DNA of 64,000 bases from NCBI RefSeq assembly GCF_041260155.1, contig NC_091941.1, forward strand, positions 36,652,747-36,716,746, given 5' to 3'. The notes below the pieces were generated by a model. The model was not told the origin of the DNA. It saw only the letters and a program-made list of their open reading frames with translations, and ran no database searches. Within the stretch, counting starts at the first letter, position 1; each line of letters begins with the position of its first letter. A program made the position numbers and the translations under genes. The DNA is from Ptychodera flava (lineage: Eukaryota > Hemichordata > Enteropneusta > Ptychoderidae). Positions 45 to 28,000 of the stretch are shown here, one piece after another.

Positions 45-3000
45 ATCATAAACTGCACAGGGCCTGCTGAACTTGTAGTGAGTACAGTTAGCAAAGAAGA
101 CCCACCATGCCCACATCCCTACAGTCTGGTTGGTAAAGACTGTCATGATGGAGTTTGTATCATAAAAGTGGGACCAGGACAGACATTGGTCAGGTAGGGA
201 ATCCCAAATATCTAGATACAACAATTTAATTGTTTGTTTTCACACTGTGACATGTATAGTGCAAAAGTTCAAGTAAATTTCGTATATCTGATATCATATT
301 TAGATAAATAATTACAGGCTGCTCAACTAACATTGTGATTCTTGAGTAAGTTGAAGTGTTTTGTGGTGATTTTTCTGAGGTTAATGAAGTTGAGATCAGA
401 AACAGGACTCAATATTGCCTTTTTCAGATTAATAGCATGTCATAGGTTTATTGAATTGTATGTAGAAATGTTCACAGAGAAACAAATGCTCGTATCAACC
501 TTTAGGAAAATCTTGAAAGGGGAAAGTTTATGACTCAGTCGCAGACTTGATAGCCATAGATCAAATTTTCTTGCTTATTTGGTAAACAACCCAAGATGAC
601 TGTCATTATCAACTTTGAACATAAAAGAGAAGGAGTAACCAGTGTTAGTGGTGCGGCATGGCAAACCCAATGTGCATTTTGTGATAAAAGCACCAAACTT
701 GGCTCAGATGTGTCTTAATATGTGCTGAACAAATTCAGATACCGAGCCACTGAAAATCTACCAAAACGTTGCCATGGTAACCATTTTTCAAAATGGCTGC
801 CAGACAGGTATTTCTCACCCAGTAAATGTCAACTACCGGTACATAAGTCGTTGGGTAACTTTAGGTTGAATAATTTCAATAAGAAACTGTGAAAAGAGTT
901 ATTTGAAAATTCTTTTAAATTTTCTTCACCACCTGACTTGTTAAACGGGTAAATACAGGCAAAAACACACAATTCTTATGCATAGATCCTATAAAAGGAT
1001 GACGCTATGTCAGCAGTCAAGAAATGCTAGGCCGTGGGCTATAGGGGTCTACTTGCACCCCCAGGATAACAAACCTATCTTTTAGAAGCTTTGGGATCCC
1101 TAGAATACGAAATAGAATTTTGACAGAAAAAAATATAGGGATGCAATAACTATTATGGTCAATTTTGAACGGTACCGCAAAATAACCATTTGCTATCCAT
1201 GTGCCTTTTTCTTGTAGTACTTGTAAGTCATCTGCTAAGTTTTTTTAACGTAATCTGACTTGTCGGATATCATTAGAATGGAAATTTATTCCTCTTTAAA
1301 ATGACATATGTAATATGCAATATCTTCGATAGATTTTTTATGAAATGGGACCAAAACTTACCCAATACCCCAAAATCTGAAATTCTACCAATTTTTTACC
1401 TTGGCATAACACAAAAGGCAATGCTTTGTATGACATCTGTTTATGTGCTACAAGGACATGTCAAAATGTGAAATAGACTTTTGATAGGAAAAATATTGGG
1501 ATGCTATAGGTCTACCGGTCATACCTTGAAGGGTACCGCAAAATTACAGTATTGCCAACTCGCATGCATTTTCGTTTAACCTGTCTTCTTGTAAGTCATC
1601 TGCTGAGCTTATTTTTTTACATAACCTAGCTTATGGGCTAACATTGGAAAGGGATTTTATTCTTCTTTTAGATGACATATTTTAATATGCAATATCTTCC
1701 AAAGTTTTTATAAAATATGACAAAAACTTACCTATACCCCAAACTTTATATTGCAAATTACTTGCACTGCTTATCTCAAGCTCTACCAATTTTTACCTAA
1801 ACATATCAAAAAGGGCAATTCTCTCTATGCAATCTGTTGTATTTGCTATGGAGACATATCAAAATATGAAAGAGACTTTTAACAGAAAAATCACTGGAAA
1901 AGGGAACTGTAAAGTCAAAGTATTGCGAATTGCATCTTTTTTGTTACACGTCATATTCTACCATTTTTTAACCTAGACATATAATAAAGGGTAATGCCTT
2001 GTATGAAATCTGTTTTATTTGCTATAAGAACCTGTCACAAATACGAAATAGACTTTTGGGCAATGCCTTTTGTGAAATCTGTTTATTTGCTACGAGGCCA
2101 TGTCACAAATATGAAATAGACTTTTAACTGAAAAAATATTGGGACGCAACAGCTGTCACAGTCATATGTTGAAGGGTACCGCAAAATCACGATTTTGAGA
2201 CCCATGAACATTTTTGTTAAACCTGTCTTTGTTTAAGTCATATGCCGAGCCTAACTTATACATAACCGTGGGTATCATTAGTAAAGCGATTTATTTTTCT
2301 TTAAGTTGACCTTTTGTAATATACAAATATGCGTTACAGTTTTCATGAAATAGGACCAAGACTTGCCTAATACCCCAAAGATTACATTTCAAATTACGGT
2401 TTATCTTACGTTCTACCATTTGTTTTTCCTCCACACAATACAGAAGGCATTATAATGCTTATTTGAAATCCGTTTTGTTTGTAGCAGACGTATGTCAATA
2501 TATGAAGTGAACTTAATATGATTTAGTCGCCACTGGGATCATATTTCTAGGGGTACACAGATACGGCAAATTTCCTGAAACATATACATTTTTACCAAAC
2601 ACGTCTTTATGAAAGAAGTCAGCCAAAATCATAGTCACGGATGATCTCATATAATATCAGCATCGCATATTAAATTATTTTGTTTCAAGTTTGTTTTGTA
2701 AGATTTGACCTGAAAGTTCTTATGTGGACGTCTAATTTAATATTTTTGGCAGAACAATTTTTGAAAACTAATTATGGTATTTGTTCTACTGGCTGTAATT
2801 GAGATGAAAAAGAAAGGCATTATACTGAATTATACAACCAACTGAATGACAAGCAAGGTGCAGAATTCAGCCTTTAAAGGTTCTGTTTTCTAAACTGTAT
2901 CAATGAGCACAGCTAATTCAACAGTTTAGCTGATCCATAATCGTTTCTAAACATTATACATTACATCGAAATTACCTGGGCGTTCCTAAAGAAAAACTTG

Positions 3001-6000
3001 TATAGATATATCAGAAAGCTGGACTTTCTTCATAAACAAAATATTATGGAATAGATATACCTGATATTTAGCTGCTCTAGTTATCGTTTCTAAACTTCAT
3101 AAATTAGCATAAGTGTCTAAAGATATGTCATTTAGCTTGGCTTTCTTCATTAACAAAAATAGGGATTTGTCCAATATTTAGCTGCTCTAATGATAATTTC
3201 TAAACTTCATAAATAAGCAGAAATTTAAATAGCCATTCTTAAGTACTTTATGGCATTCTCAGTAAAATATTTCAGGATATATGTGATATTGAACCAATCA
3301 AATCATCGTTTCTAATCTTTACGAATTGAATCAAAGGATGTTCAATAGTTTAAAAGCATGTGTCTGATACTTGATCGATCTAATTATTGCTTCTACACTC
3401 AGTATACTTTATAAAGTAGTTCAGATTTAGCTGGGCTGACATGTTCAAAACGTTCAAAATTTGGTAATAGCTTTTCTGTAATTGTGTGTTACTGAATGTG
3501 CAAATGATTTATTGTGAATACTGAACTGCGTAAAATCTCTAAGGTTTATGTTTCAATTTGGACTGGAGTGTCACTGTTTGTATAGGAAGGTTCCCATTTG
3601 ATCAGATAATTGGCCAGCCAACACTACCTTGCTTAGGTCTTGGGTGTATGTGTCAAGTGGATAACAAGAAAATGATTGGCAAATATTTAGGATTGTCGTT
3701 TAAAACTGTTGTCTTAGCCTATGTAAACACCATGGAAAGGAATAAAATACTCGCCAGCTGACTAACCATGCAAAAGCAAGCAGAGATCTAGGGAGTGCAA
3801 AGCACGGACATGACGGACAAAAGTGCAGCATTGTGTTTTAGCTTTGCTTTCCCTACCTTTCATGTTTGTTAAAACAAAAGAAAGTGGAGTAATACAATTT
3901 AATTTATGGTGCCAGGTTTTTGCATTTCAACAACAAATTATGTACGACCAAGAAATTAGTACCAAAATATACCATGTTCAAAATATTATAGGCATTAATC
4001 CATATATATATATTTATGCAATAGACAATTGACATTGAATAACTCTAAAAACCAATATCTAAATTATGAAATAGATATCAAATTACACAAGATCAGTTTC
4101 ATGTGAAATGAATTATGAAAAGTAATGTATAAAATATAGTACATATAGCCGAAAAATAATATACAAACATAATCGTGTTTTCCACGTGGTCAAATTTTAA
4201 ACGGCCGCACTTATGTACTAATTGTAGTTACATGATAAATCTCTAACATTGACAATTATGGGGATAAGAGATTTCCCCCAAAATGTTATTGTTTTTAACG
4301 TTAAAACTAGAAGGTTTGTTATACAGTAAATGTCATTGTGCTTTTTGATATGTAGGCCTACGCGTGAATGTAGATGAACAAGAGTGAGAGATTTGGTTAA
4401 ATTCCCCGCACAATTTTCCATGTCAGGCCTTGTGATTTAACACCTTGCAAAACTTGTCAATGGCTGACTTATAAAAAATTAGAAAAGATAATTAGTCAAT
4501 GTCAAAATATTGCACATATTCAACATTTCTACTCAAGAACACTCCATCCATCGGAAGAACATGGAACATGCTGTTTTTACACTCGGACGCATCATACCCT
4601 CCCTATCACCGCCATGGACCGATTTAGGCCAATTTTCAAAAACCTGGTGAGTGTCGCACGTACCAGCTACAACTCTAAAATGCTTAAAACTGGTACATCA
4701 ACGATTACAAATAAGAATAAAAAAATGTCTGTACAGTACCTTCTGATAGTTAACTGCACAGAACAGCTGACAGCTGATCATCGTATAAAACATTCAATTT
4801 GACAATTTTGAATCTCCCACTTTTGCCTTGTTGCAACCATATTGTCAATAATTTATTAAGAGAACCCGTTTTTCTGGTAAAATGAAATTATAAAACAGTA
4901 AAAAATGCAAATAGTAATCTTAATATGCATTTATGATGGTAATACATCCTCTTTTTACCACAGAGTCATCTGTAAGAGCAGCAACTACGGGATTTTACAG
5001 TAATTGACGGTCGTCATATTTAAAGATGGCTGTCATACCAGAACGAGGCTCTAACTGTGAGGGATCTGTATCCAAATTGATTTTAAAACAAAAAATATGC
5101 AAATGGTAAACTTAAAAGGCATTTATGATGGAAATACGTCCTTTATTCACCACAGAATCATCTGTAGAGCAGCAACTATTGGATTTTATAGTGACTGATG
5201 GTCGCCATTTTTAAAAATGGCCGCCAGACCAGAACGAGCTCAACCTGTGGTGGCTCGGTATCCAAATTGATTTATATTATGATGATCTACAATCGTACCA
5301 AATTTCGTGCTTTTATCACAAAATGCACAATTGTTATGAAAATTTTGGTTTATGCCGCACCACTATGTTCACTTACAATACACAATGATCAAACAATGAT
5401 CAGAGGTACTGTACTGGCGGTACACATGAACCATATCATATCATTAAACTCAGTACTTGTTATATATGTTTGTGAAACTTGGCTAACGTCATCTTCTTCA
5501 ATAGTTTTGTCATGCTCTCACCACCAATTTTACTGTATATTTAATGATAAGATAGAAAAATACCTGAGCTGATCACAAAGCAGGTTTATGTATTTTGTTT
5601 GTCAAATAATTTAGTTCACTTCAAATGTTTCTTGATAGCACCATAATCTAAAAGACAATATCAGATTGCATAATACAAGTTCTTGTTCTGGCCCCTAAAA
5701 TCCATGATAAAATGCCCTGTGCTCAGCTTGTCAACACAGCACCGCGCATGGAATGTCTAATGGTATGGATATTTATTATAGTGACATTTGCACTCGCTGC
5801 TCTCTGCTGCAACTGTGACAAAATACAAAATGCTAAACTGTAAAAATACTATACGTGCAACCAGCCCACGCGGGCTTACAGGTCACTTCAAAGCAGTAAA
5901 GTACAATAAATTAGCACTGGTGATACAAAAAATTTTTCCTGACAGTATAAGCTGCTTCAACAAAGCGAGCTAATGGTCTACAACAATTTATAAATAAGAA

Positions 6001-9000
6001 TTTATACTTTTCAGGGTCTGATAAGTCACTGAAGTTTGCTAATTTTTCTGTAATTTTGTCATATAGTATTCTACGACGATGGCCATATGCCTTACAGTAA
6101 AACAGAAAATGCGTTTCCGTTTCTGGGGTACGCATAAATCACAAAATTCACAAGTTCTATCTTCTACGTCTAGGTCTTGAAATCTACCCATTTCAATACG
6201 CAAGGGGAGGGTACCTGATCTTAAATAAGCAACGAGAGACCTCTGGCTCCGACACAGATTTACCTTAAGGTACTCTTCAGGGCCACAGGTCTCTTTAAAA
6301 GTTACGTATGTTCGTAGCTCGGGCAAAGCTAGCCCATTCCTGTTTTGTGTGATTATATAATAGGTCCTTTACCATGGACAGATTACATGATACGACAGAA
6401 TCAATTATGTCAGCCCTTCCTAATTCATTGAAAACATCATAAACCTCTGACGACCAATTATTATTATTAATGTTAAGATCTCAAATGAACACTTTCTTCG
6501 TGAGCCTGTTATCAGGCATCACAAGTAACCTGTTCCATATTCTTATCATATTCAACTTCCGTCTCTCCCGTGAAGAGGCCCATCCCGTACCTCCAGTAAT
6601 GGGGATACTATTGTTGTCTAATACTATTGTTGACAGATGAGAATTTATTATTTGAACAGATAACATGTACATGCCTTGTGTTTGCAGTTGTAATATTTTG
6701 TAATTCAATGTATTTTAAAGAGAGGAACAAGAGATTTATTTGTTTTATGAAGAATAAACAAATGATAAAAATATAGTCAAACATTAGAGCTACTAAATCC
6801 CCTTAATAAATAATATTGCATAGTGTATACATTGTATTTGTCTATTTCTAAGACAATTGCCTTTGTGAAGAAACTGAATATTACAAAAATCAAAGTAATA
6901 AACAGGGCAAGTTGTTATTTGGTGCATAATCAATTTGATGTAGAATTTGTTGTTTTCTCTAAATTTTCATAGCTCACATACAATATTGGAAGTCATTGCA
7001 AGAAATTTAGACACAAAACACCTCATCAAATTTTCTCTGAAATCAGTGATTAGATATCTTACTAACTTCATGTTTAACTCAATTTCCTCTGGCAAAATAG
7101 ATTTGGACGGTTTGTTTTATGTCAGTGATATTCTGTCATGCAGATATGCTCGTAGTTATTGCATAATTCATGTTTTACAACAGACAGACAATGGAGAGAT
7201 CATGCTTTCAATTGAAACACAAGGGAGTTTTGATTTTTTTCAAGGGTTACTCTGCTTTTGAATGACCCGTTGTAATAATAGTAAAGGGAAGTCATTTAAT
7301 CAAAAATATTGTTTGGCTGACACACTGCGTCAAAGGCATTTAGAACTTAGGACTGAACATTAAAATTGATGGCCTATAGTGACAGGCATAAAACTCAATG
7401 GAATGCTAAGTTTACATAGCTCAGCTCAGTACTCGTACAGTGCTCAGTTATTTGTGCAAAAGATTGCACAACACCCATAAAAGAAAATGAGACATCGTAA
7501 TACCTTCATAAATATTATTTGTAGGTAAGTCATATTGAATTAACCCCAAGGTGCAAGGCTTATTTTGACGGTGAGGTCAGCGATAACACTATAAAAGGCC
7601 CCTGCAGTGCAGACACAGTCATCACTGCTTACATCCTACACACACACACTGTTCACAATGCTAATTGACACAGATCTCTTTACGCAATTTTCTGTCAACT
7701 TTTTTGGATTTGGTATTGTTTGCACAAATATTAGTAGAAATAAATATGATGAGAAGCCTTGATGCAGCCTTGAGATAAAGCAAAGCAGTTTTTGTGATTT
7801 GACAAGAAAGCTCTTCATTTGTTAACAATATCGCAGAAGTGCACATTTGTTGCTTGAAATCATTGATTTCCTCGGAGGTTTGTCCAATAGACCATGTTCC
7901 GAACAGCGCGAGACATTCCGAGATATCGCGAGAATATGTGGTTCGCAGTGGACGTGTTCTCGCAACACAGGACAAACTGCGCAAAAACAGGACAAGTCGC
8001 TAATTACGTTAAACACTGCATAAAATATATGAAGTTGCAATCTTTGCTCAGTTCTGCACTTTTTCTAGTTCCATACAAAGTTTGACTTGTTAGTACTAAG
8101 CTGGAAACCTGTTTCTACGGGCATGTATTAAAGTCTCGCGAGATCTCGCAATCAGCGGAACATCATCTATTCTGTTTGCAGAAATATGGATGCTTATTTT
8201 GTGTACCAATTATTGAAATATTGGAAGTTTTTAAATAAATTTTTAGACACTGAAATTGAATCATACTCAAAATTTGCTTAGCTCCGGCAGTTGTTGTCCA
8301 TGACATCAGACACATTGGAGCTAGTATTTACATATTTGTTGCCACGGGTTACATACGTGTATTCTTGTATTATAATACAGTACTGTATGAATAAAAACTA
8401 CAAACTCCCATGTTGTGATGAATATTAAAAATTCCCTGGATCATGTTGCTTGGCAACATGAATCCTTTAGTATCACGTTTATGATGATGGGAAGTTTCAG
8501 TTCCCTTGTGTTGACCTTTGATAACCAACCCAGGTATAAACACTCATGCCATACTACATGTACTAGAATTCAAGGCAGTAATTGTCAACAACAAAGTATA
8601 ATATCACCATACAGTTCCCATTCACAATTGTTGTGTTGAATCAGGTCATGGTGGCATAGGGAACGTTTGTCTTAGTCTTGTATAATACAGAGTAAATATC
8701 TTCATCACAAATTATTTCACAGTTTTCATCAATGGTGTGCTGTTTTTGTAACCATGCTTAGAATTTTACAATATTCACACACATGTCATGAGCTGTATAA
8801 AGGTGGTGATTAATCTCTTCAAAAAGGAGAATTTGTGAAGCAAATTAAGTTGTGTGTGTACTACAGTACAGATGTCAACCCGATGTAGTAGAAACCAACA
8901 GAGTGAAATATGTTGTACATACATTGGATCTTTACAGTTCTGCAAAAGCAATTAATTTTGAGTGCAGCAACAATGGTGTTGCCATACCAGTTCAAGCAAA

Positions 9001-12000
9001 AATATTGACTTTACTACTGTCAGAGTTTAAAATCAAAGGAATTTCAATGATTTGTTTTTAGAATTATTCTGCTGCTTTTATTACAAGTGGTTGTATATTT
9101 TGCTACTTGTGGCTGCTTCCTGGATTGTTTTTGCAATTAACAACCTGTATTAAATATGGTAACTTGCATATGATACTGATGTCAATAATTATTTCCTGCA
9201 AATTTTCATATTCCTAAAACAAAATCACATGATATTTTTTTCATTCTTGTTGTTTCAGTGAAGCCATCGCCATTCACTCAATTGTAACAGATTTTCACTG
9301 AGTAGTAAAACTTCCCTTTTCTTTGATTACGACCATTGTGGATACATTAAGTTTCTGCTTCCTGTTTTTTTGTGGTGCTATTATATGAAGCCCCTTAGCT
9401 GCCAGGGTTCACTGACTCACACACACAAGCGAAAACATCTTTTAGACGTTGTGAATTCCACTATCACACTATATGTTTTTACTTTTTTCTTGTTCAGAGT
9501 ACAGCTGCCATAAATCACCATTTCGATAGAAAGAGCTGGAATGGTTTTCAACATTCTTGTGAATTTGTTATTAAGTTTGTCCTGTTGGTTTTTGTACAAC
9601 TGAAGTATGAGGTCCAAGAGCAAAAGGTCAAGTGATTACAAATGTGTAAATGTCCCTGGACACACAGTGAGAGGGCAAATATTTTTAAATTTTGGAGTGA
9701 GAAAATTGTAAACGATGAGACTCAGAATAATCCATCACTCTTACAATACAGGTTTGTAGACAATGTTTGGTGATAAGTAAAAGTGGCAAAATGTGTATAT
9801 TTTATCTCATTTAACATTTTTTTTCTTCATGACATAAAACAAACTGGAAATTTCTTAAATAGGTCACCATACAGAATCTCTTTCAAACATGGCATATATC
9901 AGAGTTTGCCCTTTGTACAGCTGGTAGCTCCACTGACAGAACATATCGTTCATAGTTTTGTATCCACAGTCATCTCAACATACAACTGCCATATTGGATT
10001 TATCCTTTGGTCTAAATGAATGGTTTTCTTACCCAAATATCCTCTTGTTTATTGAAAAGAGCAATTTTGTATTTTCTGTGCATTATGCCATTTTGCGTTA
10101 ACTTAAATTGGTGATTCAGAAAATAGCTTATGGCGATTGTTGATGTGATTCTGATTTGTGCAAATTATGCAGAAAAAAATTGGAATATTTGTATTTTTGA
10201 GGACATTTTGTTTTTGGTCTAAACATCTGCTTTCAAGAAGTGTTGTATAAATAGCATTAATATTTAGTCTGTACAACCTGGGCAATGGTGTCAGTTGGAT
10301 GTTTGTCAACGGTAACAAAGGTACCCATGTCCAACATTTTTATTTTGTAATTGTCTTTTGTCAAACATTATCAGGACATATTCCCATTGCTTGAATGTTT
10401 AAGTTTTTCATTTACCCTTTGAGTGCCAAAGTCAATTTTTGCTGCCTGTACAAAAAGTACCCCAGTCAATTTTTTTCAGATTTTTGCCAAAATTTTGATA
10501 AAAAACTGTGGCAAATGAAATGTGATGGCCATTTGGTCCAAAATTATCACAAAATTTACAGAAAAATTAATAACAATTGGTAAAATGTTGCACAAAAATT
10601 TTGGAGGGAAATAAATTACAGCACTCAAAGGGTTAAAAAGGATAAATACAGTTGCTGATATTTAAAACAGATCATGGATAATATTAGGTATATTTCTTTC
10701 TCAATATATTGAATGTATTACATTGTTCAACAAATGTTTGGGTATTAGCTTAAAATATAGTTGTAAATTTGGTAATCACTATGTACAGTAAGATTGTACA
10801 AATTATTATTTGGAATATTCTTTGGATTGTATTGGATACCAGGAAAAACCAGATTATTTACATGGTTGTCCTGTGTTAAACCTTTAGCTATACCACTTTA
10901 CCAAGCAACTATTTATGGTCACAGTCTTCCATGTTTCCTAGATTTGGATGTTTCAAGCATTTGATCTGACAGACTTTGAACAATGTACCAATTATGTGAT
11001 AAGCCTCTGGTTACAATATATTGTTTTGCACACGTTTGCTTCATTTGTGAAATGTTTTGTTATTTAAGTACTTAACATTTGCATTATGTTAGAGTCAAAA
11101 TTTTGCGAGTTTAAGTTGTATGTTGTTTATGATCATGATCTGAAATAGTAAATGATTATAGTTTTCCAGATCATAATAATCATGATTTTGAATTTTCAAC
11201 AGTTGTTCAGGTATGGGTGTGAGATGTGAAAGGAAGAAAGAAATAAAAGAAGCGTTTGAACTGAAACTAAAAAATCCAAGACAGGCATTCAGGGGTAAGT
11301 TATTGAAAATTGTCTAATTTATTGTATGTAACCAACATTGTACATCATGTCGTGTCCATTACTGTCCACATGTTTGAACCATTGAACTATATCATTCCAA
11401 CACTTAGTTTTTGCAATGATCATGTGACATTCAATTTAACTCTCTACAAAGTCTGTGACACCAATAATCGTTTTTGCTGTAAGCTTTTAGAATGGAGAAA
11501 GAATAATACAAATTGTTTGAAAAATTGAACTTCATTGGTACATGTATTGTCAGGTGTATATTTGTCATGATATCCTTCATTATCGTTGTAAAACCTTTGA
11601 TGTAGGTGTGTCACATTTCTTAATACCATTATTTTACAGAAGAAACATCAAGAAGACCAGACGATCTGGATGTCAACTGCTTGCGTCTTTGTTTCCAGCT
11701 TTACCAAGAACATCCCGATTATCCAGGCTCTATGGCTGTAGTATCCCAGCCAGTTTTGTCTAATCCAGTGTATGATAAAAGTGAGTTTTCACACACTTAT
11801 TTAATCGTACAAGCTTGTGACCAGATCAACATCTCTAATTGAATTTGCACTCTGAAATGGTACTTCTACTTGTTTTTCATTTGTTCACATGAAGGAAATT
11901 GCCTCTTTCATTTTACATTTTAAATATATTCAGCACGGGTATGTATTTGTTTTGAAGTAAACTGAGGAATGTCCTCTATGTACAAAATTTGTACAACCTA

Positions 12001-13068
12001 CAAACATTTAAAATAAAACGCATTTTGACTATAATGTGATTAGGGGATAACATTACTAGCCAATTTGTATTGGGGAAAATGTGCTTAATATATGTATGTT
12101 TACACAGTATATGTTACTCATTCACTCATAAACTTAAACAAATTTGGATGAAATTGGTGTAAACTTGAACTACTGATAAATCCTTGAAATCACAGTACAA
12201 TTGTTCACCTTTAATTGTATTCTTTATTTACAGAAGCAGCTGGAATGTGCAATTTACAAATTGTACGAATAGATAAAACAAGTGGGAAAGTGTCCGGTGG
12301 GGATGAAATCTACATGTTTGTAGAAAAGGTCAAAAAAGGTAAGAAATGTACATGTGTTATCATGATTGTCACGTGCACTATAGGTAACTTACAACTTACA
12401 TGTGATTTGTGAGTTTATGTGTTTCCAAACTATGGAGGTCACCAGGTCACTTGGAATGGATAACTCAACACTGTTCATTACTTTTTGAGCGAATACATGT
12501 CATCATGTGTGCATCCATTCTTAAACTGTGGTTTATCATGACAGTTTTGATGGACATGCAGCTTAGCAAGATATGTTGATCTAAAAATGCTTGTGACACT
12601 GGTGTATGGAGTATTGTAGAGCATATTTTATCAGTATTAGCAAGACTGTTTCAAAATTTCCAGCATTAGCAGTCAGGAATAAGCCTGTAATATCATGACC
12701 AGATAATGTTGTTCTTCACCTAAATCTTTTCATCTTTCTATGGAGTCTCTTGATTTAGCATATAAGTATTGGTTCTGTGGCTGAATAAAATGTCAAAGTT
12801 GTCTATAATGAAGATGAATATTGAATTCCAAATATTTAAAGCTATACAAGTTTTATATAACCACTTTTTGTTATACTTTAAAAATTTATTTCCATGTCTC
12901 TCTTTTACAGAAGACATTGAAGTCCGCTTTATGGAGGAACAGTGGGAAGCACGGGCAGACTTCGGACAAAGTGACGTCCACAAACAAGTAGGCTTTAATT
13001 ACCATATATATGGAGCACAAAGTTGTGTACATGTGTGTGTGTGTGTGTGTGTGTTTGTGTGTGTGTGC

Positions 13069-13128
<60 letters not shown>

Positions 13129-16100
13129 TGCAAGACCATAGCATGTATTATCCATCATAAAATGCTTGAAATGCGGAAATCACAAGGGAAAATCACTTGA
13201 TAAACTAAACTTGACAATGAAAGATTATGTAAAATTTGTTCAAATGAATGTGTTCTCAGTCAACAACCTGTCTTTCTATTTATTTCTTCATAGTATGCTA
13301 TTGTATTCAAAACACCGGCCTATCGAAAGCTGGACATCACAAATTCAATTACCGTACAAATCAAGCTCTTTAGACCCTCTGACAGCGAATACAGTGATCC
13401 AGTCAAATTCATATACAAACCAGCAGAATCAGGTGAGTTTCATAGATCATACATTTTAGCCTTTGTCCTACAATAAGTGAGTTACACAAGAAGATTAAAA
13501 GAAAGTGGCGCACATTTGATTCATTTAAGACATTTTTCTAAAGGACAAAACTTCCTGCAGAAATCTTCAGAAGCTGTGGATGCTCAGGGAAAGTAAAACT
13601 TTTTTAATTTTTTAATTTTTCCTTTAATTTATGTTAAGATTAGGTTCATATTAAATCTGCAGTTTTCACCCGTCAGAAGTAGCTATTGTTTTTATCATTC
13701 CCTCTTTTGATTGTGTAATCTGGTAATTATATAATACACAATGCCGGGCAGATGAATATTTCACATTGATAAAGAATTATTAGCATAAAATTTAAATGCC
13801 GAAACAATACCGAAACAGTGCTCCTTAATATAATTTGCATAAATTAATACTAATCTGCCCCATATCTTGCACTAATAGCTGGTAATACCGGACAATCCAT
13901 TTATGCTGTAGCTTTACAGTAAAGGAGAAACGTGTTTCACCAAAAATATTTCATTATGTTTCATCATGTGTCTTTCTTTCAGACGATGAAGGCATTCAAA
14001 GGAAGAGGCAGAAAGTGGCCAATTTTAGTAAATTTCTCACAGGAAACCAACCATTTAGTCGCAATAGTAAGTGACTTTCAATCTTCCACTACCCTATTAT
14101 CCCTCAAAATCATGAATATTATGTTTCGTGGTGACGATTAATACTCTTGTCTGTTCTTTTATTTCACCGGAGAACATGTGTTACTGATATTTTGATAAAA
14201 ACTCCATTCTGAATATGTATGTGATGAAACATTTTCTGCTGTCTTTTGTGAAATGCTGGCAAAATTTTGGACTGCAATCAATCACTGTCATATACTATAA
14301 AATGGTTATGGGTTCATGTGAGCAGCAGTCAGGTTTTCCTATTAACATAATTTTTGTTGTTTTTTCCAAAGAACAATTGCCAAAGCCAGAGTTAATTCCA
14401 CGACCAGGCTATGATGTCAGGGAATTATTACGGAGGAAAGTGGGAGAGAACTCAGGTGGTATGTTTGCTGTCCGTCCTAGTGGTCCTGTCTATCAACAAC
14501 AAAATGCCATGCAACGTCATCCACAGATGATGCCACCAAGAGGGGCAATGCCAGGGAGGCAAGCATTGAAGAGGCCGTATGGCACTGACAGGGTTCACGA
14601 ACCACCAGCCCACACAGCTACAACACTTATGCCAGGCATCCGTCAAGTTCCACCAAGTACAGCAGGACAGCATGGCTTTGCAGCTGGAAACCCTCCTGTA
14701 ATACGACATCATAGGAAAGAAGTCCCTATCCCACAAGCAGCACCAGCACTTCCGACATTGACAAAGCCACCTGGTGACTTTCCCTTCACTAGTGTCCTTG
14801 ACTTCCAGGCTGAGTCTTATCAGGCACCAGGTGTAGCACAGGCAATGAATGAAATCCTTGAAAGACAGGGGAGACATCCTCAAATGAGATCACCTAGAAG
14901 AGCAGCAGAGGCGCAGTCGTTTTCACCAATCAGTGATGACAGCTTCTCCTTCACCCATCAACGGTCACCAAAGATTGAATCCAGCGCCACCGAAGACAAA
15001 TTTTTTGATCAAATATTCCCAGGTTTATCCCCGACATCGGAGACTGACTTTGGAAAGCTTTCAGCAGATGCTGTGTCAGAATTCTTCGCTGCTAGTGAAT
15101 TTGAGGCAAACAGCTCGTCTACTCCAAAGCCAGATTTCAGACAGCGCATGAACCCTGCTCAGAGAGCTTTGGGAGCCTTGGGGAGTGATGTTGTCTGTGA
15201 TGGGAGTCCAGTGATTGATATGAAGGAGCCATTTGCCAGTGTCAGTGTTGGAGATGCTGCTGATGAGTTGAATGCAATTGCTCCTGACTTACCAGAAGGA
15301 GGAAATGGTACAGTTTATGGTATCAACCCACCTTTTAAGATTCCAAACACACATAATGATCAAACAGTACCTAACTCCAACCCCTGTCAGCAAATGGAGA
15401 CAGAGGTAATGGAGGCTGAGCAGGTAGTTCCGCAGACTGAGTTCTACCCGACTGTGTCTGCCGTGATCGATCATAATGGCGGGAAGCTGGAAATGCCGGA
15501 GTTTGGAGTTTGCCTGGTGGTTCCCCAGAATGCCATTCCGTCTGGGCAACCACAGAAAATCTTCCTGAGTGTCAGCTGGTGCAAAGTTGACAAGCCTCCC
15601 TTGGAAAACGGTGAATCGTGGGTCAGTCCTGTTGTTTGCTGCGAGCCAACTGGGTTGAAATTCCAAACACCCGTGGCACTGTCTTTCCAGCATTGCCTTA
15701 ATTTCAAGGATAAACACAGAGGATTCATCAATCTGCATTGTAGCAATACAGAAATTGGTAAGTTAATTTCTCTATGTTAAATCTTTCCTCTGAATTATAA
15801 TACTTTCTAAACATGTACTGATGTCAAGGTCATTTTCAGCATTGATACTCTTGATACTTCCTAGTAAATACTATCTTGTTAGAATGTAAATTTCTACACA
15901 ATAAATAAATGTATATAGCAGATTATGAAATAAATTACAGTTTATGTGATTTGGCAGTATAGCTGCTGATTAATACTTTCACAGGAGGATTGAAAGATTA
16001 ATGACTCTAGCATTTCCTTAAAAGAACTTAAAGTGAAAATTGTTAATATTTGTCCAAAAATCAGTTACAAGTTGCTTACGTGAAAAATCAACTTTCTAAA

Positions 16101-19100
16101 TTCTTGCAGGAACAGAAAACAACTGGCAGAAGAAATCCATCCTTGACCAAGGAGACTGTTCTTGTATTGTGGATGAGACAAGATGTATTGTTATCACGGA
16201 TCATTTCACAAAGTACGGAATGAGCGCCACAATGACGGAGGACATGTCAAAGCGTATCAAAGTTGCTGTGTTTGCGGCGCCAATGAGTCATTCACATTCC
16301 AATGCTGTTCTACGGGTCTACGCCATCAATGGCACTCCAGATGCATATCAGGTATGAGGACATCCGATAAAATCAGGTCAAAGGTCATGTGCTTGATCAA
16401 AATTAAGAACTTGAGTGTGTGCAAAATTAACCCAGCTAACATCCAATTTTGTTAATGTGTTATTCTGACATACATACAAAGGTTACATGTGAATAGAATT
16501 CTTCCTGTAGCCTTCTCTTGTTTTATTACAATTTATTGTCTGTCATACTCACCATAGAGGACATTAGCTGAATCTCTTTCCAACCTCATTTCAGTTTTCA
16601 ATCTATCATACATTATTTAATGTCAAACTCTAATGAAACATTGAAATTTTGCCTTTTTTGTATTCTTGCCTGTACAATCCTGCACATTCTAGGTAAAACC
16701 AACAGTAAATGCTTTATCGATTAACTGACTCACTAGTAAATGCAAAATATTCATTTTTAGGAAATGATAAATGAAGAGAAACAAATGAATGGCACTCTTG
16801 CTGAAGCGACAAAATATTATCCTTTTTTTGACAACAACATGGATTTGGATGTTATCTTGACCCATATTGACGATGGATGGGCATTAATCAATTGTCCAAC
16901 ACAAATTGTAAGTACTCTTTATTTATTTGTATCATTTTAATTTTTGTCACTGTAACTATCTAGTATGTCAAAGTTGCTTGGTTTTAATCCTTATTGGCTG
17001 ATTTCATATTGGTCAGTCGATTTCTATGATTTGTCAGCTACTGTATTTCCAGCAATTGGTTGGCAAACTGTTGAATAGTGTTTATTAGTTGACTGTAATA
17101 GGGTTTTCTATCGACTGTGCAATTGCACAAATTGTGCATTTCGAACCACTCTCTGCCCTTTAAAAGTTACTGACAGCACGAAAATCATGCACAAAACACA
17201 GCAAGCAAATACGCCCATATGATGGTGACCCAAGCGCATGGTGTAGTTACCTGTTAATTTGCTGTTGTCAAGTCAAGTCTGCCCCCTAATTTTGATGAAT
17301 GGGGCAGAAATTGCCCCTTCAATGAACATGCAGAGAAAACACTGCTGTAATTTGTTGGCTGATGTTTGTGATGAAGTTGACTGGACTTCTGTGATCACCT
17401 GACTGGTTTGTTTGATTTGTCAGCTGTTGTTTCTAGATCCTGTGACCAATAGGGTAATGTCTGTAAACTAAGTGGAAGTGTACAGTTGATTTATTTACAT
17501 TTATGCAAGAACAGAGACAATACCTGTAACTTCTGGTAACATCTTCATCATTTTGAATCTGTTTGTAACGTTTGAAGTTTAAAGATACTACATTCCATCG
17601 GACAATCCTGAGAACAAAGAGAGATATATTGTTTTAATAAGTAAAAAATCAGCATTTTTTATTTTTGTCCATTATACTTTCTTCTTCATCCCCCAAACAC
17701 ATGTCAAAATAGAAAGTGTTCTTGCACACATGATGCATCATGAATATTATGTAATGTTATTGTTGACAGAGAAATTCTTGTCTGGACTAGAATTCAGTTG
17801 TCAATGATAATACTTGACGTTACACACATACAGGATGTGTTGACAAATTCATTGCCATGCATGTGTTGACAAAGTCATTGCCAGGCTTCTGAACATGATT
17901 TATTGAGTGGAATAAGAAACTGTATTTCACAAAGAGAACAAACTTAATGCAAAATGCTTGGCAGTTACAGTCAATGGAGATTAAATGTGATGTACAATAC
18001 TATAGAATTATCAAGTGATATGCTGATTAAACTATCAATTTGCATATGTTCCTCCTGAAATTGCCTTATTGAGATACTTTACATGAAAATACCCCCGGTA
18101 CTGTGTTGTGTGTGATGTCATCTAAGTACCATTGAATGTATTCCTCAGTGACAATACATTCAGCACTGTTTCCATTTAAGATACAGTAACTGATAGAAAC
18201 ACCTCCCTGAATTCTATAATTACAGGTAGGAAGTGCCAGGGTGAGTTACTTTTTGACTCTCAAATTCTTAAAATATGTTCCTGGTCTACTACTTGTTTTG
18301 GCACATTTTGAAGCCCAGATCTACAACAAATGAATTTTTCACAGACTTTTTGTGAAAATAGAACCTTTAATTTTACCCAATTGAGTAAATCTTGGATTTT
18401 AAATTTGTTCAGCTGCTGCCGGTTTTTCTCAAATTTTAATAAATTTAAATAACTCTTTTTCTCTCACCTTGTACTTATAGGCTCTACCAAGGAAAGACAT
18501 CCTGGAAGGTTTCAAAACAAGCTGTACATTCCGCTTTGCTGATCAAGGAAAGGGTGCCTTAAATTTTGGAACCAACATCCATGTACACCAACAAAACAAT
18601 ACAAATAGCCCAATTTGCTTTGTTGTCAGTCAGAGTCTTGAGGTAATTTTTTTTCACATCTTTTATAAAAAAGTTCAGTGTTTGTTCCTTCTGTTCCACT
18701 GTATGGACAGTGGTTATACCTCTTATTTGACATGGAATCATCATGGACACAACAAACCAGTCTCTTGTAATGTTAAAAAAAGAATGAATCAGACAATATC
18801 ATACATGTCTCAGTGCAAGAGGGGCGTATCTGCTATGCGTTAACACTAGAGAAGCGCTCCTCTGGCACTGGGCCATTGATTATGAGTGTTACTGTGAAAA
18901 AACTGCAGGAAAATACAGAGCAAACTAGAACGGAACTGAGCGAGAGAGAAAGAGAGAAATGTGTGTGAGAGAGAGAGAGAGAGAGAGGAGAGAGACAGAA
19001 ACAGAGAGATATGACGGAGGAACAGGATAGCATCTGGCTAGAAAAATAATGTTTTTGTGAATGTTATTAATACCACTGAAACTGAAATGTGGTTCAGACT

Positions 19101-20090
19101 GTACATACATTTTTACAATCTTTCATGCCAGATTAATGACTGAATTATAATTTCTTTTTATATTTTCAGCCACCAAAGCCAGTACATGTACCTGTAGGAG
19201 CAAGTTATCCAGCATCCTATGTAGATCCTTGGAGTCAACGACCCCCGCCGAGAGCTGTTGAAAGACCAATGCTTGCACTACCCCCACCATCATTTGATGG
19301 CTCTGTGCAGAGTTTTCCATCCACCAACAACGCTTTCTTTCAAAGATCTCCATCTGCAGAAAGCACCATCAGACAATTGCAACAGCATCCACCTTTAGCT
19401 GTAGACAGGCTACGAAAGGTGATCCCGTTTCATATCAAATGTCAGCTTGGCTTGCGGTTAAATCCGCTGCGCGACCCCATTGGAAATGACTGGCGCATGT
19501 TGGCAGACGAGATGAAGCTCAGTGCTCTCATTGAAAACTTTAAAATGAAATCTAGCCCTACAGATGAACTCTTGTTGATCTGGGAATCCAACCATGATGC
19601 AAGTAAAGAGTTAGGTGAACTAATCCAGATACTACGCAAGATAGGAAGACCAGATGCTGCACAGATCCTGGAGGAATACCTTCAGCAGCAAGGTCAAGGT
19701 TTCCAACAAAATAGTAGTGGCAGTCACATGACGGGGATTTCAGCTCCCAACGCCCAACAACATGCCACTGTCAAGGTAGAGACAGAAGACAATGCCCCAG
19801 ACTTGCTTCAACTTCAAGCTGGTGATGCTCCAGTCCCAGATATCCGTCAAAATACTCCAAACATGCTTCCGAACCCTTCCAGTGTCCCCAATAATGTTAC
19901 AATGCCAAACTCACATGTACCAGGTGTTGATGGGCAGGGTGATTGTTTCGATAGCTTGGAATTTCTAAACGCAAAGTGTGATGCAATCCAAAATGAGCAG
20001 CTGAGGGATGCCACTCTCAACACACTTCAGATGAATAGATCCCAGTCTGACGAAGCCAATGAAAATTTTCAGTCAGAAATGCTTCATTGA
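45..20090 (+). CDS. Rel/NF-kB transcription factor fused to ZU5-UPA-death domain (5' partial)
   Basis: Exons read from splice sites and continuous phase: 45-193, 11203-11294, 11640-11780, 12234-12338, 12911-12987, 13294-13432, 13983-14066, 14372-15757, 16110-16351, 16761-16907, 18481-18642, 19170-20090 (stop TGA 20088-20090); 3645 bp, about 1214 residues. The first in-window exon starts inside the Rel homology domain (SLVGKDCHDG core), so the start codon and DNA-recognition loop lie upstream. Order: rest of Rel DNA-binding lobe (1-127, window numbering), IPT dimerisation lobe (128-236), basic NLS (RKRQK, about 241), Pro/Gln/Met-rich linker (262-615), ZU5 (618-760), UPA (765-908), Pro-rich spacer, death domain (982-1080), Asn/Gln-rich tail. 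No ankyrin repeats are seen. Known Rel proteins are cytoplasmic-nuclear dimers binding kB DNA; UNC5/PIDD-type ZU5-UPA-DD modules are autoinhibitory signalling platforms. The combined function is inferred. The Rel lobe looks closer to c-Rel/Dorsal (RLCFQ, VLSNPVYDK) than to p105. Confidence 0.9.
600..830. repeat. Dispersed repeat family C, copy 1
   Basis: Contains GGTGCGGCATGGCAAACCCA, TGCATTTTGTGATAAAAGCA, a GATACCGAGCCAC block and a terminal CAAAATGGCTGCCAGAC. The reverse complement of 4930-5400 carries the same blocks in the same order, so these are two diverged copies in opposite orientation. Confidence 0.7.
1100..2700. repeat. Diverged tandem repeat, unit roughly 270-380 bp
   Basis: The block GGGTACCGCAAAAT or a decayed form recurs near 1170, 1530, 1905, 2174 and 2550. 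Around each lie TGACATATTTTAATATGCAA-like, CTACCAATTTTTACC-like and GAAATAGACTTTT-like segments in the same order. Copies differ by many substitutions and indels, so the array is old. Confidence 0.75.
2930..3400. repeat. Short tandem repeat array, unit about 110-140 bp
   Basis: The block ATCGTTTCTAAAC followed by a CATAAATTAGCA-like stretch, then CTTTCTTCAT and ATTTAGCTGCTCTA, recurs from about 2941, 3084, 3196 and 3306. Copies are diverged. Confidence 0.65.
4930..5400. repeat. Dispersed repeat family C, copy 2 (reverse), with internal duplication
   Basis: Reverse orientation relative to 600-830. It holds two tandem versions of its own: CATTTATGATGG...CCACAGA.TCATCTGTA near 4930-5070 and again near 5115-5250, each ending in an AAATGGCNGCCATACC/AGACC-like block. 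Confidence 0.65.
5911..6713 (-). pseudogene. Decayed non-LTR retrotransposon (LINE) ORF2 C-terminal fragment
   Basis: Minus-strand translation shows the far C-terminal region of a LINE polymerase in pieces: RIWNRLLVMPDNRLTKKVFI (6481-6560), NWSSEVYDVFNEL (about 6430), ELRTYVTFKETCGPEEYL and SQRSLVAYLRSGTLPL (about 6200-6320), CEFC (about 6150), and ETETHFLFYCKAYGHRR (about 6070-6125). The CxxC...HFLFxC pattern is the usual zinc-binding end of these enzymes. An in-frame stop after KKVFI and at least two frameshifts break it. The reverse-transcriptase and endonuclease domains are missing. It sits antisense in the Rel intron. Confidence 0.8.
7590..7625 (+). promoter_or_regulatory. Candidate TATA/Inr core promoter inside the Rel intron
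   Basis: TATAAAAGG at 7590-7598 is followed 31 nt later by an initiator-like TCATCA (A at 7621). An ATG at about 7658 opens only a 34-codon frame. The spacing is canonical for a TATA promoter, but AT-rich DNA gives chance TATA boxes, so this is a candidate only. Confidence 0.35.
7900..8150. promoter_or_regulatory. Cluster of CGCGAGA / TCTCGCGAGA elements
   Basis: The palindrome TCTCGCGAGA lies at 8134-8143. Related CGCGAGA or TCTCGC sites lie near 7905, 7926, 7959 and 8145. In vertebrates TCTCGCGAGA is a known promoter element of CpG-rich housekeeping promoters. The surrounding intron is AT-rich and CpG-poor by eye, so the local concentration is notable. Confidence 0.4.
10413..10635. mobile_element. 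MITE-like repeat family A, copy 1
   Basis: Ends are inverted: ACCCTTTGAGTGC at the left and GCACTCAAAGGGTTA at the right. The inside carries AAAGTCAATTTTTG, TTGCCAAAATTTTGAT and ACAAAATTTACAGAAAAATT. The same parts recur at 25557-25769 and 27059-27279 in reverse orientation. No coding capacity. Confidence 0.75.
13031..13128. repeat. Compound (TG)n-(GA)n microsatellite
   Basis: About 50 bp of TG repeats with a few interruptions followed by about 45 bp of GA repeats, 40 bp downstream of the donor of exon 12911-12987. Long open frames across it on both strands are repeat artefacts. Confidence 0.95.
13983..14066 (+). other. Rel-domain end with nuclear localisation signal
   Basis: This 84-bp exon encodes DDEGIQRKRQKVANFSKFLT. 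The basic run RKRQK follows an acidic stretch, as in the family just after the IPT lobe, where it is the NLS masked by IkB-type ankyrin repeats. The exon ends in phase 1 and joins the linker exon at 14372. Confidence 0.85.
14372..15430 (+). other. Pro/Gln/Met-rich linker, possible activation region
   Basis: First two thirds of the 1386-bp exon 14372-15757. It encodes about 350 residues rich in Pro, Gln, Met and Ser, with no ankyrin or other recognisable fold. Two hydrophobic-acidic clusters stand out: DDSFSF (near 14935) and DKFFDQIFPGL (near 14995), followed by repeated Ser/Thr-Pro. Such clusters resemble transactivation motifs of Rel proteins, but that role is inference. The same uninterrupted exon runs straight into the ZU5 domain. 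Confidence 0.6.
15436..16210 (+). other. ZU5 domain with HFT motif
   Basis: Split over exons 14372-15757 and 16110-16351. Blocks match the UNC5 ZU5: GGKLEMPEFGVCLVVPQNAI, then SPVVCCEPTGLKFQTPVALS, then a Cys-rich CSCIVDETRCIVITD. In other family members the last block ends NLSTY (UNC5) or HFSWY (PIDD1); here it is HFTKY at 16202-16210. ZU5 domains pack onto UPA and the death domain to hold the module closed. Confidence 0.88.
16211..18642 (+). other. UPA domain coding segment
   Basis: Three exons (rest of 16110-16351, 16761-16907, 18481-18642). Blocks follow UNC5 UPA: KRIKVAVFAAP, LRVYAINGTPDAYQ, then DVILTHIDDGW and TSCTFRFADQGKGAL. UPA (conserved in UNC5, PIDD and ankyrins) sits between ZU5 and the death domain. 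Introns here are phase 0. Confidence 0.82.
18938..19012. repeat. Imperfect (GA)n microsatellite
   Basis: GAGA-rich tract with AAGA, TGTG and ACAG interruptions in the last Rel intron. Confidence 0.9.
19393..19684 (+). other. Death domain, UNC5-like
   Basis: Encoded inside the last exon. It reads VIPFHIKCQLGLRLNPLRD, then GNDWRMLADEMKLS, then SSPTDELLLIWESN, then LGELIQILRKIGRPDAAQIL. The GNDWRMLA and SPT...L..WE blocks match UNC5 closely. About 98 residues, normal for a six-helix death domain. It should mediate homotypic contacts with other death-domain proteins; the partner is unknown. Confidence 0.9.
19685..20090 (+). other. Asn/Gln-rich C-terminal tail with SUMO-type motif
   Basis: About 134 residues of low complexity after the death domain, ending in MLH and TGA at 20088-20090. 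It contains VKVE at 19770-19781, followed by acidic residues, a good fit to the sumoylation consensus (hydrophobic-Lys-x-Glu). No further domain is recognised. Confidence 0.6.
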
Positions 20091-20173: not shown

Positions 20174-20179
20174 AATAAA
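20174..20179 (+). terminator. Candidate polyadenylation signal of the Rel gene
   Basis: AATAAA 84 bp past the stop codon. Further AATAAA sites downstream (for example 22615) could serve a longer 3' UTR. Confidence 0.35.
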
Positions 20180-25017: not shown

Positions 25018-28000
25018 TCATTCTTCAAGGAACAGTGAGGTATAAAACTCTGGTTCACTCATTTTCTTTCGATATTTCCTGGTCATCTCTTGCAGTTTGT
25101 GTTTCCTTCTCACATGGGGTGGTGTGTGCCTAGGAAATGTGTAAAACAGAAATCTCTGGTCATTTCTTGGAAAACCTGTGGCAAACCTGGTCTGCTATTC
25201 AAAATACATTTTCAAGCCCTATGTAGAACACAGTTTCTTCAAATAACTGCTGCATCCAAAACAAGAATGTTACATTTGCCAAGTACATATCTCCGACAGG
25301 CTACATCTGAGAATCCACATTCAAAAGCATATTTACACACTTAGAAATTTAGCTTTGGTATTTTTGTTATCAACAAAATTGGGGAAAATTTTGCTGAAGA
25401 CATTTTAATGAATAAAAGATTTGTGGTGTTCGCTGATTTTAAGAATCTCTGTACATTTCATCTGAAGTCTTATGCACACACAAAATCATTGACAACTATG
25501 TACGTAGTTATTGTAGTAGTCTTTTTGGTGTTGACTATCATAGAATCACAGCCTTTAACCCTTTAACCCTTCCAATCAAATTTCAGTGCAACATTTTAAT
25601 AAATTTTTATGAATTTTTCTGTAATTGTTTTGATAATTTTGGACTCAATGGACATTTGTTGGCTACAGTTTTTTGTTAAAATTTTGGCAAAAATCTGAAA
25701 AAAAAAAAAATTGACTGGAGTATATCTTATAAAGGCGACAAAAATTGACTTTGGCTCTCAAAGGGTTAATGGGAGGGGTCATCGGAACTGCACACAATGG
25801 TTGTATGGGACCCATATGCCCAATGTAAACACTGTATCCAAGGTACATCGGTGATTGAATCAGATGACAGTTAAAACATGTTGGTCATAATGTATATTGT
25901 AAAAAATGTTGCAGCTATGTTGACATGATAGATCTAGATATTGTGCATGAAATACATTGTTTGTAAACAAGAAAGACACACAGGCTCAGTTATGATGACT
26001 CCTCCCTTTAAATACACACCCAAAAAGTTCCAAAATGCTGGTGTACTTACATATCATTTTCCAGTCTCTTTCTGCAGCAGATATTGAGAGCTGTCTGTCT
26101 GACAAGCACACCCAATGCCCTTCTGCTGACCACCATACCATCCATCAAGGGTATGGCCATGTGAGTTCTGTAACAAGTCAAAGGAGTGCATTGACAGAGT
26201 ATGTGTATTATCAAGGTTACACTGATTCACAAACCAACTAAAGTATTTTGTATCAACACAGTGAATGATAAATTGCATGCTACCATGTAACTTTTGAAAA
26301 CTTTCTTTCCTACTTCACATGCAATACACATGTATATGCAGAAAGCAAAATCATCACATCATGTCTAAAACAGGCTAAAGTGTAGTATTCATCAAGACGT
26401 TGATCTTGTTCATTTTGACAGAAGCAAAGAATGACAGTTTCCCACACAGATACAATCACAGTTATGTACTCTCTGACATAGCTAAGAGACTGGCTAAGAG
26501 AGTGCACAAATTCTTGTTGACTGTCATGGAGAGATGTGAGAAGTGAAATTATAACTCTTTTTTTCTCCTGAAGACCCATCTTACCTTCCTTCAACATGAA
26601 TTCTATAGAGACCACTTCTAAGAGGGTGGATAAAGATCAGGATAATCTCCCTGTCCAAGACTTTATTCAGAGATGAGCTGCTGAGCAACAGATATTCAAT
26701 TCCAGTGCTTGTCTCAGGCAGTATATCAGCTGTCATAGTACAGGGCAGAAAAAAATGAAATTATTAAAGTGCGTGATAGGGCAAAATGTTCATTCCAGGG
26801 TTTGGATGGAATTATGGCTCTGTCCTGTATGTAGCATGATGAAAATGATATAGAAGAATGGAAATTCCTAAACTGACTCAAAGAATTTAAGAAATTTTGT
26901 CATTCAGAGGGCATACCACTGCAAAAATATGTGATGAAATAACTATAAAATCTATTCATTGATCTAGACATAAGCGTTCTCTAACAAACAAAAACATAAG
27001 GGAAAAGGCCATGTATTAAAGAAAGTGGATCTTCACAGAGTCGCCAGTATATGTAATTAGCCCTTCAAGTACTGTAATTTTTCCCACCAAAATTTTAGAG
27101 CAACATTTTACCAATTTTTATGAATTTTTCTGTAATTTTTTTGATAATTTTAAACCAAATGGTAATGGCATTTTATTAGCTGCAGTTTCTAATCAAAATT
27201 TTGGCAAAAATCTTAAAAAAATTAACTGGGATATATTTTAAAAGGCGACAAAAATTGACTTTGGTGCTCAAAGGGTTAATATTCACAATAATGGCAATAC
27301 ACTCAGACGTTCATGAAAAGACTAGATACTATTTTTATTGACTGAAAGCACAAGATCCAAAGTGAGCTGTACTTACATAATGGAAATGTTTCATGATCAT
27401 CATAGTCTTCTAACCACACTACCATGACTTTAGTCTCTGGTCCTGTTAGTAAGCTCTGCCTGGTCGGGAAGCGTTTTGGTCTTCCGGGAGTTCCGGGACT
27501 GGTAGCCTGGGTATTCTGGGGATCACTGGATGCCAGATCCAGGGATAGATTCCGTGGTGATTTGGATGGCTTGGATGAACTGTCTGTTGTAGTCTCTGTC
27601 ACTGCTGGTTCACCACCTGCTGTGACTGAAATCAAAGAATGGAGGGGAAAATGCATGATTACGCATACATATGTATATTTTGTCAGTTTTTCAGTGTAGG
27701 TTAGCAACAATTAGTGAGAAACGACAAACGGAAAAATTTACTGAAATAGTTCTTGAATAAAAGTCATCGTTGATGACACAGTCCCCACTTGTTAATGGGT
27801 ACTTTGATTACATGTCCTAAGAGGATAGAGTCCTCTTCATTAATTGAGACATGCCCAAGTTTTGGCTAAGGACACAAAAAATTGTAACAAAATGGCTGCC
27901 ATGCAGCCATATTGGATCATATCAAGAAATAAATTGACATACATATGTATGACATAGGTTAATGTCCTTGTACCAACTTTGAATAAAATCGGTTAAGATA

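Follow-up and report, generated by a model that had tools for sequence, protein, structure and literature searches.

NF-kappaB factors are normally restrained by ankyrin repeats, which are carried either within the precursor itself, as in p105 and p100, or by IkappaB. UNC5 receptors carry extracellular immunoglobulin and thrombospondin domains in front of their ZU5-UPA-death module. Self-cleavage has been described in related domains: D'Osualdo et al. place the self-cut of CARD8 between Phe296 and Ser297, within the ZU5-like part, equate the scissile Phe296 with Leu677 of UNC5b, name HFS as the motif of PIDD and Nup98, and find that His252 of CARD8 (His624 of UNC5b) is needed, probably through an effect on stability (PMC3210808). 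Pairing between ZU5 and the first strand of UPA keeps the C-terminal part of NLRP1 from being released (PMC8081665). Here we describe a gene of the acorn worm Ptychodera flava that almost certainly encodes a Rel homology domain (RHD) and a ZU5-UPA-death tail as a single fused protein; at the level of sequence, this domain order is present in one predicted polypeptide in each of two species.

The window, that is, the whole 64-kb stretch of DNA analysed (64,000 nucleotides), contains 12 exons of this gene on the forward strand (45..20090). Each exon begins after an AG acceptor and all except the last end at a GT donor, and together they splice in phase, in one frame, to give 1214 residues (Table 1). 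The sole stop of this frame lies at 20088-20090 and is followed 3′ by an AATAAA that begins at 20174, while the sequence for residues 1-85, from the start codon on and with the codons of the DNA-recognition loop, lies upstream of the window. The exon model was made before it was compared with P0001, an uncharacterised 1299-residue NCBI prediction from Ptychodera flava, which the 1214 residues match at 100% identity and 100% query coverage; because P0001 is itself a prediction, this is agreement with the splice model and no proof of expression. The original prediction had reported the gene as 13294..20090. That interval was borne out as the 3′ part of a single forward-strand gene, but as an account of the gene's extent it fell short, since five further Rel exons lie upstream within the window (45-12987). 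The three junctions on which it relied, 13432/13983, 14066/14372 and 15757/16110, have GT/AG borders and keep the frame, and its reading that the Rel and NLS exons splice in phase into a stop-free 1386-bp exon, followed by UPA and death exons and a single stop, held. The long exon (14372-15757) is open across 461 codons, against a maximum of 170 in 500 mononucleotide shuffles.

Table 1. Coordinates of the Rel-ZU5 gene features in the window; residue numbers are those of P0001.
Feature	Position	Strand	Basis
Rel exon, RHD DNA-binding domain, from residue 86	45..193	+	spliced model
Rel exon, RHD DNA-binding domain	11203..11294	+	spliced model
Rel exon, last part of RHD DNA-binding domain (ending at residue 212)	11640..11780	+	spliced model
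Rel exon, RHD dimerisation domain	12234..12338	+	spliced model, Pfam
Rel exon, RHD dimerisation domain	12911..12987	+	spliced model
Rel exon, end of RHD dimerisation domain	13294..13432	+	spliced model
Exon with NLS-like RKRQK (residues 326-330, codons 14000-14014)	13983..14066	+	motif only
1386-bp exon covering the linker (residues 357-703, approximately) and the beginning of ZU5 (residue 709 onward, 15454)	14372..15757	+	
Exon: end of ZU5, H-F-T site, start of UPA	16110..16351	+	spliced model, Pfam
Predicted self-cleavage site H841-F842/T843	16202..16210	+	alignment
UPA exon	16761..16907	+	spliced model, Pfam
UPA exon, with the end of the Pfam UPA match at residue 979 (18600)	18481..18642	+	
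Last exon, with a second linker, the death domain (Pfam match at 19455-19679), a tail bearing the conserved RSxSDE, and the stop	19170..20090	+	

The window also holds other open frames and exons, all on the minus strand. The 11-kb intron at 194-11202 encloses an open frame (6039-6368) that has no Pfam match and that we take to resemble the C terminus of a reverse transcriptase of the LINE type. Beyond the gene, 51346-51591 and 29285-29785 are probably exons for the beta subunit of a Ral GTPase-activating protein (within 29285-51591); they match the solved RalGAP beta chain at 8.9e-16 (68 residues) and 9.5e-5 (33 residues), respectively. At 27876-29191 a 150-bp unit is repeated in tandem about 8.8 times, with minus-strand open frames that encode repeated peptides. 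The segment 62101-62394 is an exon for a cation channel of the TRP type, closest to TRPC4/TRPC5 (2.3e-13; Pfam Ion_trans, 1.7e-7), and a 389-codon open frame at 57042-58211 has no Pfam match at E 0.01.

Pfam searches were run at E 0.01, and five families were found in P0001, all exceeding their curated cut-offs: RHD_DNA_bind (PF00554; residues 44-212, 7.9e-51), RHD_dimer (PF16179; 221-317, 4.4e-34), ZU5 (709-799, 1e-22), UPA (856-979, 4.3e-11) and Death (1089-1163, 2e-15). The RHD, ZU5, UPA and Death domains named by the original prediction were likewise recovered above curated cut-offs from the spliced 1214 residues (RHD_dimer 4.1e-34, ZU5 9.3e-23, Death 1.9e-15, UPA 3.9e-11), with RHD_DNA_bind at 3.5e-29, this domain being clipped by the window edge. 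A Microcephalin match at the end of ZU5 fell below its cut-off (E 0.07, or 0.0013 with exon 16112-16351 alone). The linker (357-703) and the tail gave no Pfam family. Ankyrin families were found in neither P0001 nor its Glandiceps talaboti counterpart P0002 (Pfam, E 0.01), and the idea of ankyrin repeats in the linker was rejected, as Pfam found none there. Immunoglobulin and thrombospondin domains of the UNC5 receptor kind were not among the five families of P0001 at the same threshold. Neither acorn-worm protein contains an IkappaB-type DSGxxS degron, which would fit release by a route other than that of IkappaB without proving such release. The otherwise variable tail of both ends in RSxSDExNxN (P0001 1283-1288, window 20037-20054), a possible phosphorylation site. 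A C-terminal transactivation domain is a trait of class II Rel proteins; at this end the acorn-worm protein has the tail with the conserved RSxSDE.

The tail has the UNC5-type module order of ZU5, UPA and Death. Among solved structures the ZU5-UPA segment matched UNC5B best (2.4e-29), followed by ZO-1 (2.5e-14, ZU5 only) and the ankyrins (0.0012 and worse), and the death domain matched UNC5H2 (1.1e-6) and then MyD88 (1.1e-5). Since the nearest solved matches are UNC5B and UNC5H2, 'UNC5-type', the term under which the tail was originally described, is a fair name for it.

P0002 comes from a different family of acorn worms (Spengelidae, as against Ptychoderidae for Ptychodera) and has RHD_DNA_bind, RHD_dimer, ZU5, UPA and Death in identical order, with a weaker Death match (1.3e-7; 32.1 bits, cut-off 22.6). 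The two proteins are 68.8% identical over the RHD, 62.5% around the NLS, 57.9% from residue 704 through the H-F-T site, 46.8% over the death domain and 45.5% over 844-990 (UPA). Identity is lower in the linker (34.1%), residues 1-43 (32.5%), residues 991-1072 (31.5%) and the tail (29.2%). They share ten identical runs of at least 8 residues, three of them within ZU5-UPA, and the linker contains motifs common to both species, for example DFPFxSVL and SPVIxM.

Against solved structures the RHD scored highest with c-Rel (263.7 bits), followed by p65 (242.2), RelB (235.2), p52 (219.3) and p50 (212.8). The matched segment is 273 residues long, compared with 276-279 in Dorsal-type proteins and 288-308 in the ankyrin-type proteins (n=11), and the acorn-worm loop ends in TAGS, where Rel and Dorsal have SAGS and p105/p100 have SHGG. 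Two RHD trees were built, the first from 29 of 121 proteins hand-picked across groups and the second from 27 of those 29, omitting P0069, whose cut was over-long, and P0097, which formed a long branch. In both, the acorn-worm pair sits on its own long branch (0.93 and 1.02 changes per site; support 100/100) and the ankyrin-type and Dorsal-type proteins form separate groups; long-branch warnings were raised in both runs. A lone c-Rel-like protein (P0003) is loosely placed; that label is ours, as its source names it p105 and ankyrin repeats are absent from it.

The DNA-recognition loop is RFRYKSEGETAGS (RFRYKSEGE) in both acorn-worm proteins. It follows the family pattern RFRYxxEG as RFRYKSEG, with Ser at position 6, and has Glu after EG. 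In the set of 120 proteins that have an R[F/Y]RY loop, Cys occupies position 6 in 118 (24 with CEGR and 94 with CEGP), and Ser together with Glu occurs in the acorn-worm pair only. Position 6 has been described as Cys in nearly all Rel/NF-kappaB proteins and as Ser in several insect Relish proteins and in Nematostella, where the Cys/Ser difference changed DNA binding, transactivation and sensitivity to thiol reagents (PMC2751831). The loop Glu would reverse a charge and may shift the choice of DNA; we saw no precedent for it in the material examined.

A phmmer alignment to UNC5B places Q676-L677-G678 of UNC5b opposite H841-F842-T843 of P0001. UNC5b numbering was set so that the disulphide Cys663/Cys670 and Glu666 fit, and the register is anchored by His624 (H788 in P0001), Cys663/Cys670 (C828/C835) and Glu666 (D831); because these residues are shared with UNC5b, they fix the register and give no argument for cleavage. 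At the position of CARD8 Phe296-Ser297, where a self-cleaving ZU5 has Phe followed by a nucleophile, both species have Phe followed by Thr in place of Ser. HFT lies at 882-884 of P0002 within TDHFTKYG, an 8-residue run identical in P0001 and one of the three in ZU5-UPA, and neither protein has another HF[S/T] triplet. In 119 other proteins such a triplet occurs at 7 of 111692 positions, with an expectation from composition of about 1.3e-4 per site. A fly ankyrin has HFF (PHFFAVV) at an apparently equivalent place, positioned by eye, which suggests that H-F may be ancestral or structural and that the nucleophile Thr is the informative residue. In GAIN domains, which are cut at an H-X-S/T site, Thr works as a nucleophile with His as the base, yet one GAIN protein keeps an intact HLS and is uncleaved (PMC13062082).

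The catalytic His of NLRP1 and CARD8 sits 26 residues ahead of the scissile Phe (PMC8081665). By counting, the corresponding position 816 of P0001 is Gln, and that of P0002 is Ile; the acorn-worm domain was therefore not classed as NLRP1/CARD8-type. Two histidines close by in P0001, H796 and H803, are not conserved, being Asp and Gln in P0002. The His at −2 of the PIDD/Nup98 type is present in both acorn-worm proteins, and in Nup98 its mutation had a slight effect on cleavage (PMC3210808). We judge self-cleavage of ZU5 between F842 and T843 to be slightly favoured; the predicted site is conserved in two sequences and has Thr where the known self-cleaving ZU5 domains have Ser.

A whole-protein search recovered these two acorn-worm proteins among 7989 scored candidates. 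An RHD-centred search gave 169 matches from 2076 candidates of 0.55-1.75 times the query length, a range in which a shorter relative from Saccoglossus, echinoderms or amphioxus could be missed. ZU5 or UPA was present in the acorn-worm pair only, among the 120 matches listed of the 169; the other matches listed were RHD domains with or without ankyrin repeats, and many of the p105/p100 proteins among them also carry Death. A ZU5-centred search gave 3 matches from 2808 candidates, namely the acorn-worm pair and a single ankyrin from fly; this search needs shared exact words and left UNC5 receptors unlisted too, so that absence elsewhere, including Saccoglossus, does not follow from these searches. 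The original prediction had known of no described Rel protein with ZU5-UPA, and we found no description of this architecture in the open-licence literature on Rel homology, ZU5, hemichordate NF-kappaB and domain shuffling. Where excerpts of papers name ZU5 alongside Rel homology or RHD, the terms refer to separate proteins, and the excerpt of a study of UPA-Zu5 modules joined to TRADD-N domains does not contain the term Rel homology (PMC8195603). Each part is known; the open-licence literature searched describes neither their combination nor a possible self-cleaving transcription factor.

The explanation that we consider best, with a probability of about 0.48, is that ZU5 cuts itself, that the fragments are held together non-covalently, and that the tail restrains the Rel part until a death-domain signal or degradation intervenes. 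ZU5 would cut itself after F842, as in PIDD, CARD8 and NLRP1, to yield an RHD-NLS-linker-ZU5 fragment and a UPA-death domain-tail fragment. The two would stay joined without a covalent bond, the first UPA strand connecting them as it does in NLRP1. In the resting state the Rel fragment, on which the NLS-like RKRQK would remain after the cut, would be masked or tethered by the UPA-death fragment. Recruitment of the death domain to a signalling complex, or degradation of one fragment, would then free Rel-ZU5 for nuclear entry. Such a protein would work in a manner similar to p105/p100, with self-cleavage replacing proteasome processing and ZU5-UPA replacing the ankyrin repeats. That the tail restrains the Rel part, for which the blocked release in NLRP1 speaks, seems to us plausible at slightly under even odds. 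Of the original prediction, the architecture is supported; inhibition by the module and receptor-proximal sensing stay hypothetical. The full proposition, a transcription factor activated by its own self-cleaving ZU5, in which cut-and-hold of the PIDD/NLRP1 kind replaces the ankyrin and proteasome logic of p105 and a death-domain signal directly frees the Rel factor with no separate IkappaB step, is bolder and on balance unlikely.

The most serious competitor, a reading that we regard as possible and clearly second in line, is that ZU5-UPA-death stays uncut and closed, a scaffold like that of UNC5b and the ankyrins, and serves as a fold-back inhibitor or binds a death-domain partner while the protein acts as a full-length Rel factor. 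The solved structures nearest to the tail are those of UNC5B and UNC5H2 (2.4e-29 and 1.1e-6), UNC5b is described as autoinhibited (PMC8081665) and has no cleavage triplet, and the NLRP1-type catalytic His is missing from the acorn-worm protein. However, UNC5B has QLG at the very site at which both acorn-worm proteins keep H-F-T, and the presence of this triplet at a known ZU5 autocleavage position leads us to prefer a self-cut, non-covalently held tail to the static closed tail of the original prediction. The near-equal scores of the death domain with MyD88 and UNC5H2 (1.1e-5 and 1.1e-6) could instead point to an adaptor, through which the death domain would join a MyD88/IRAK-like or other complex so that Rel is modified and launched at the receptor without any masking. 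Death domains are cross-similar, so that the MyD88 score names no partner, and the ZU5-UPA that accompanies the death domain would be left unexplained; we consider this improbable.

In a further reading, two genes were merged by gene prediction, with Rel ending after 14066 and ZU5-UPA-death starting at ATG 14215: the open frame of the long exon reaches upstream to 14188 and takes in this ATG, and both protein models are automatic predictions, so that a shared error is conceivable. The separate start, which the original prediction had named as its own alternative, did not survive, since ATG 14215 is intronic, lies before the splice site and is absent from P0001. The flanks of the 14066/14372 junction are conserved in P0002 (EGIQRKRQKV before, LPKPE after), the splice sites are in phase, the linker is conserved, and Glandiceps has the five domains in the same order, which makes an artefactual fusion unlikely. 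We therefore rejected a fusion made by gene prediction on the strength of the conserved Glandiceps ortholog and junction, and give it very little probability.

If the self-cut, held tail is the correct reading, one protein may serve as both the switch and the released factor. A Rel protein with ZU5-UPA-death instead of ankyrin repeats would represent a second, independent solution to a built-in inhibitor, and would link Rel factors to the self-cutting switches of PIDD and of the NLRP1/CARD8 inflammasomes. With PIDD, CARD8 and NLRP1 the acorn-worm protein has in common a hydroxyl residue directly after Phe at the equivalent ZU5 position, and with PIDD and Nup98 the His at −2. It differs from the former three in using Thr where they use Ser and in having a DNA-binding factor at its N-terminus, with no LRR, NACHT or CARD found. 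The UNC5 netrin receptors share its ZU5-UPA-death order and are its nearest solved relatives in sequence; however, they have Q-L-G at the site, whereas the acorn-worm protein has H-F-T and a transcription factor in front. Class II proteins (c-Rel, RelA, RelB, Dorsal) resemble it in that c-Rel is the best solved RHD match and ankyrin repeats are not found, and differ in that the acorn-worm protein adds a ZU5-UPA-death tail, has Ser and Glu in its loop and sits on a long branch of its own. Class I proteins (p105/p100, Relish) share with it the plan of an RHD and NLS followed by a C-terminal regulatory half, in which they have ankyrin repeats and the acorn-worm protein has ZU5-UPA in their place.
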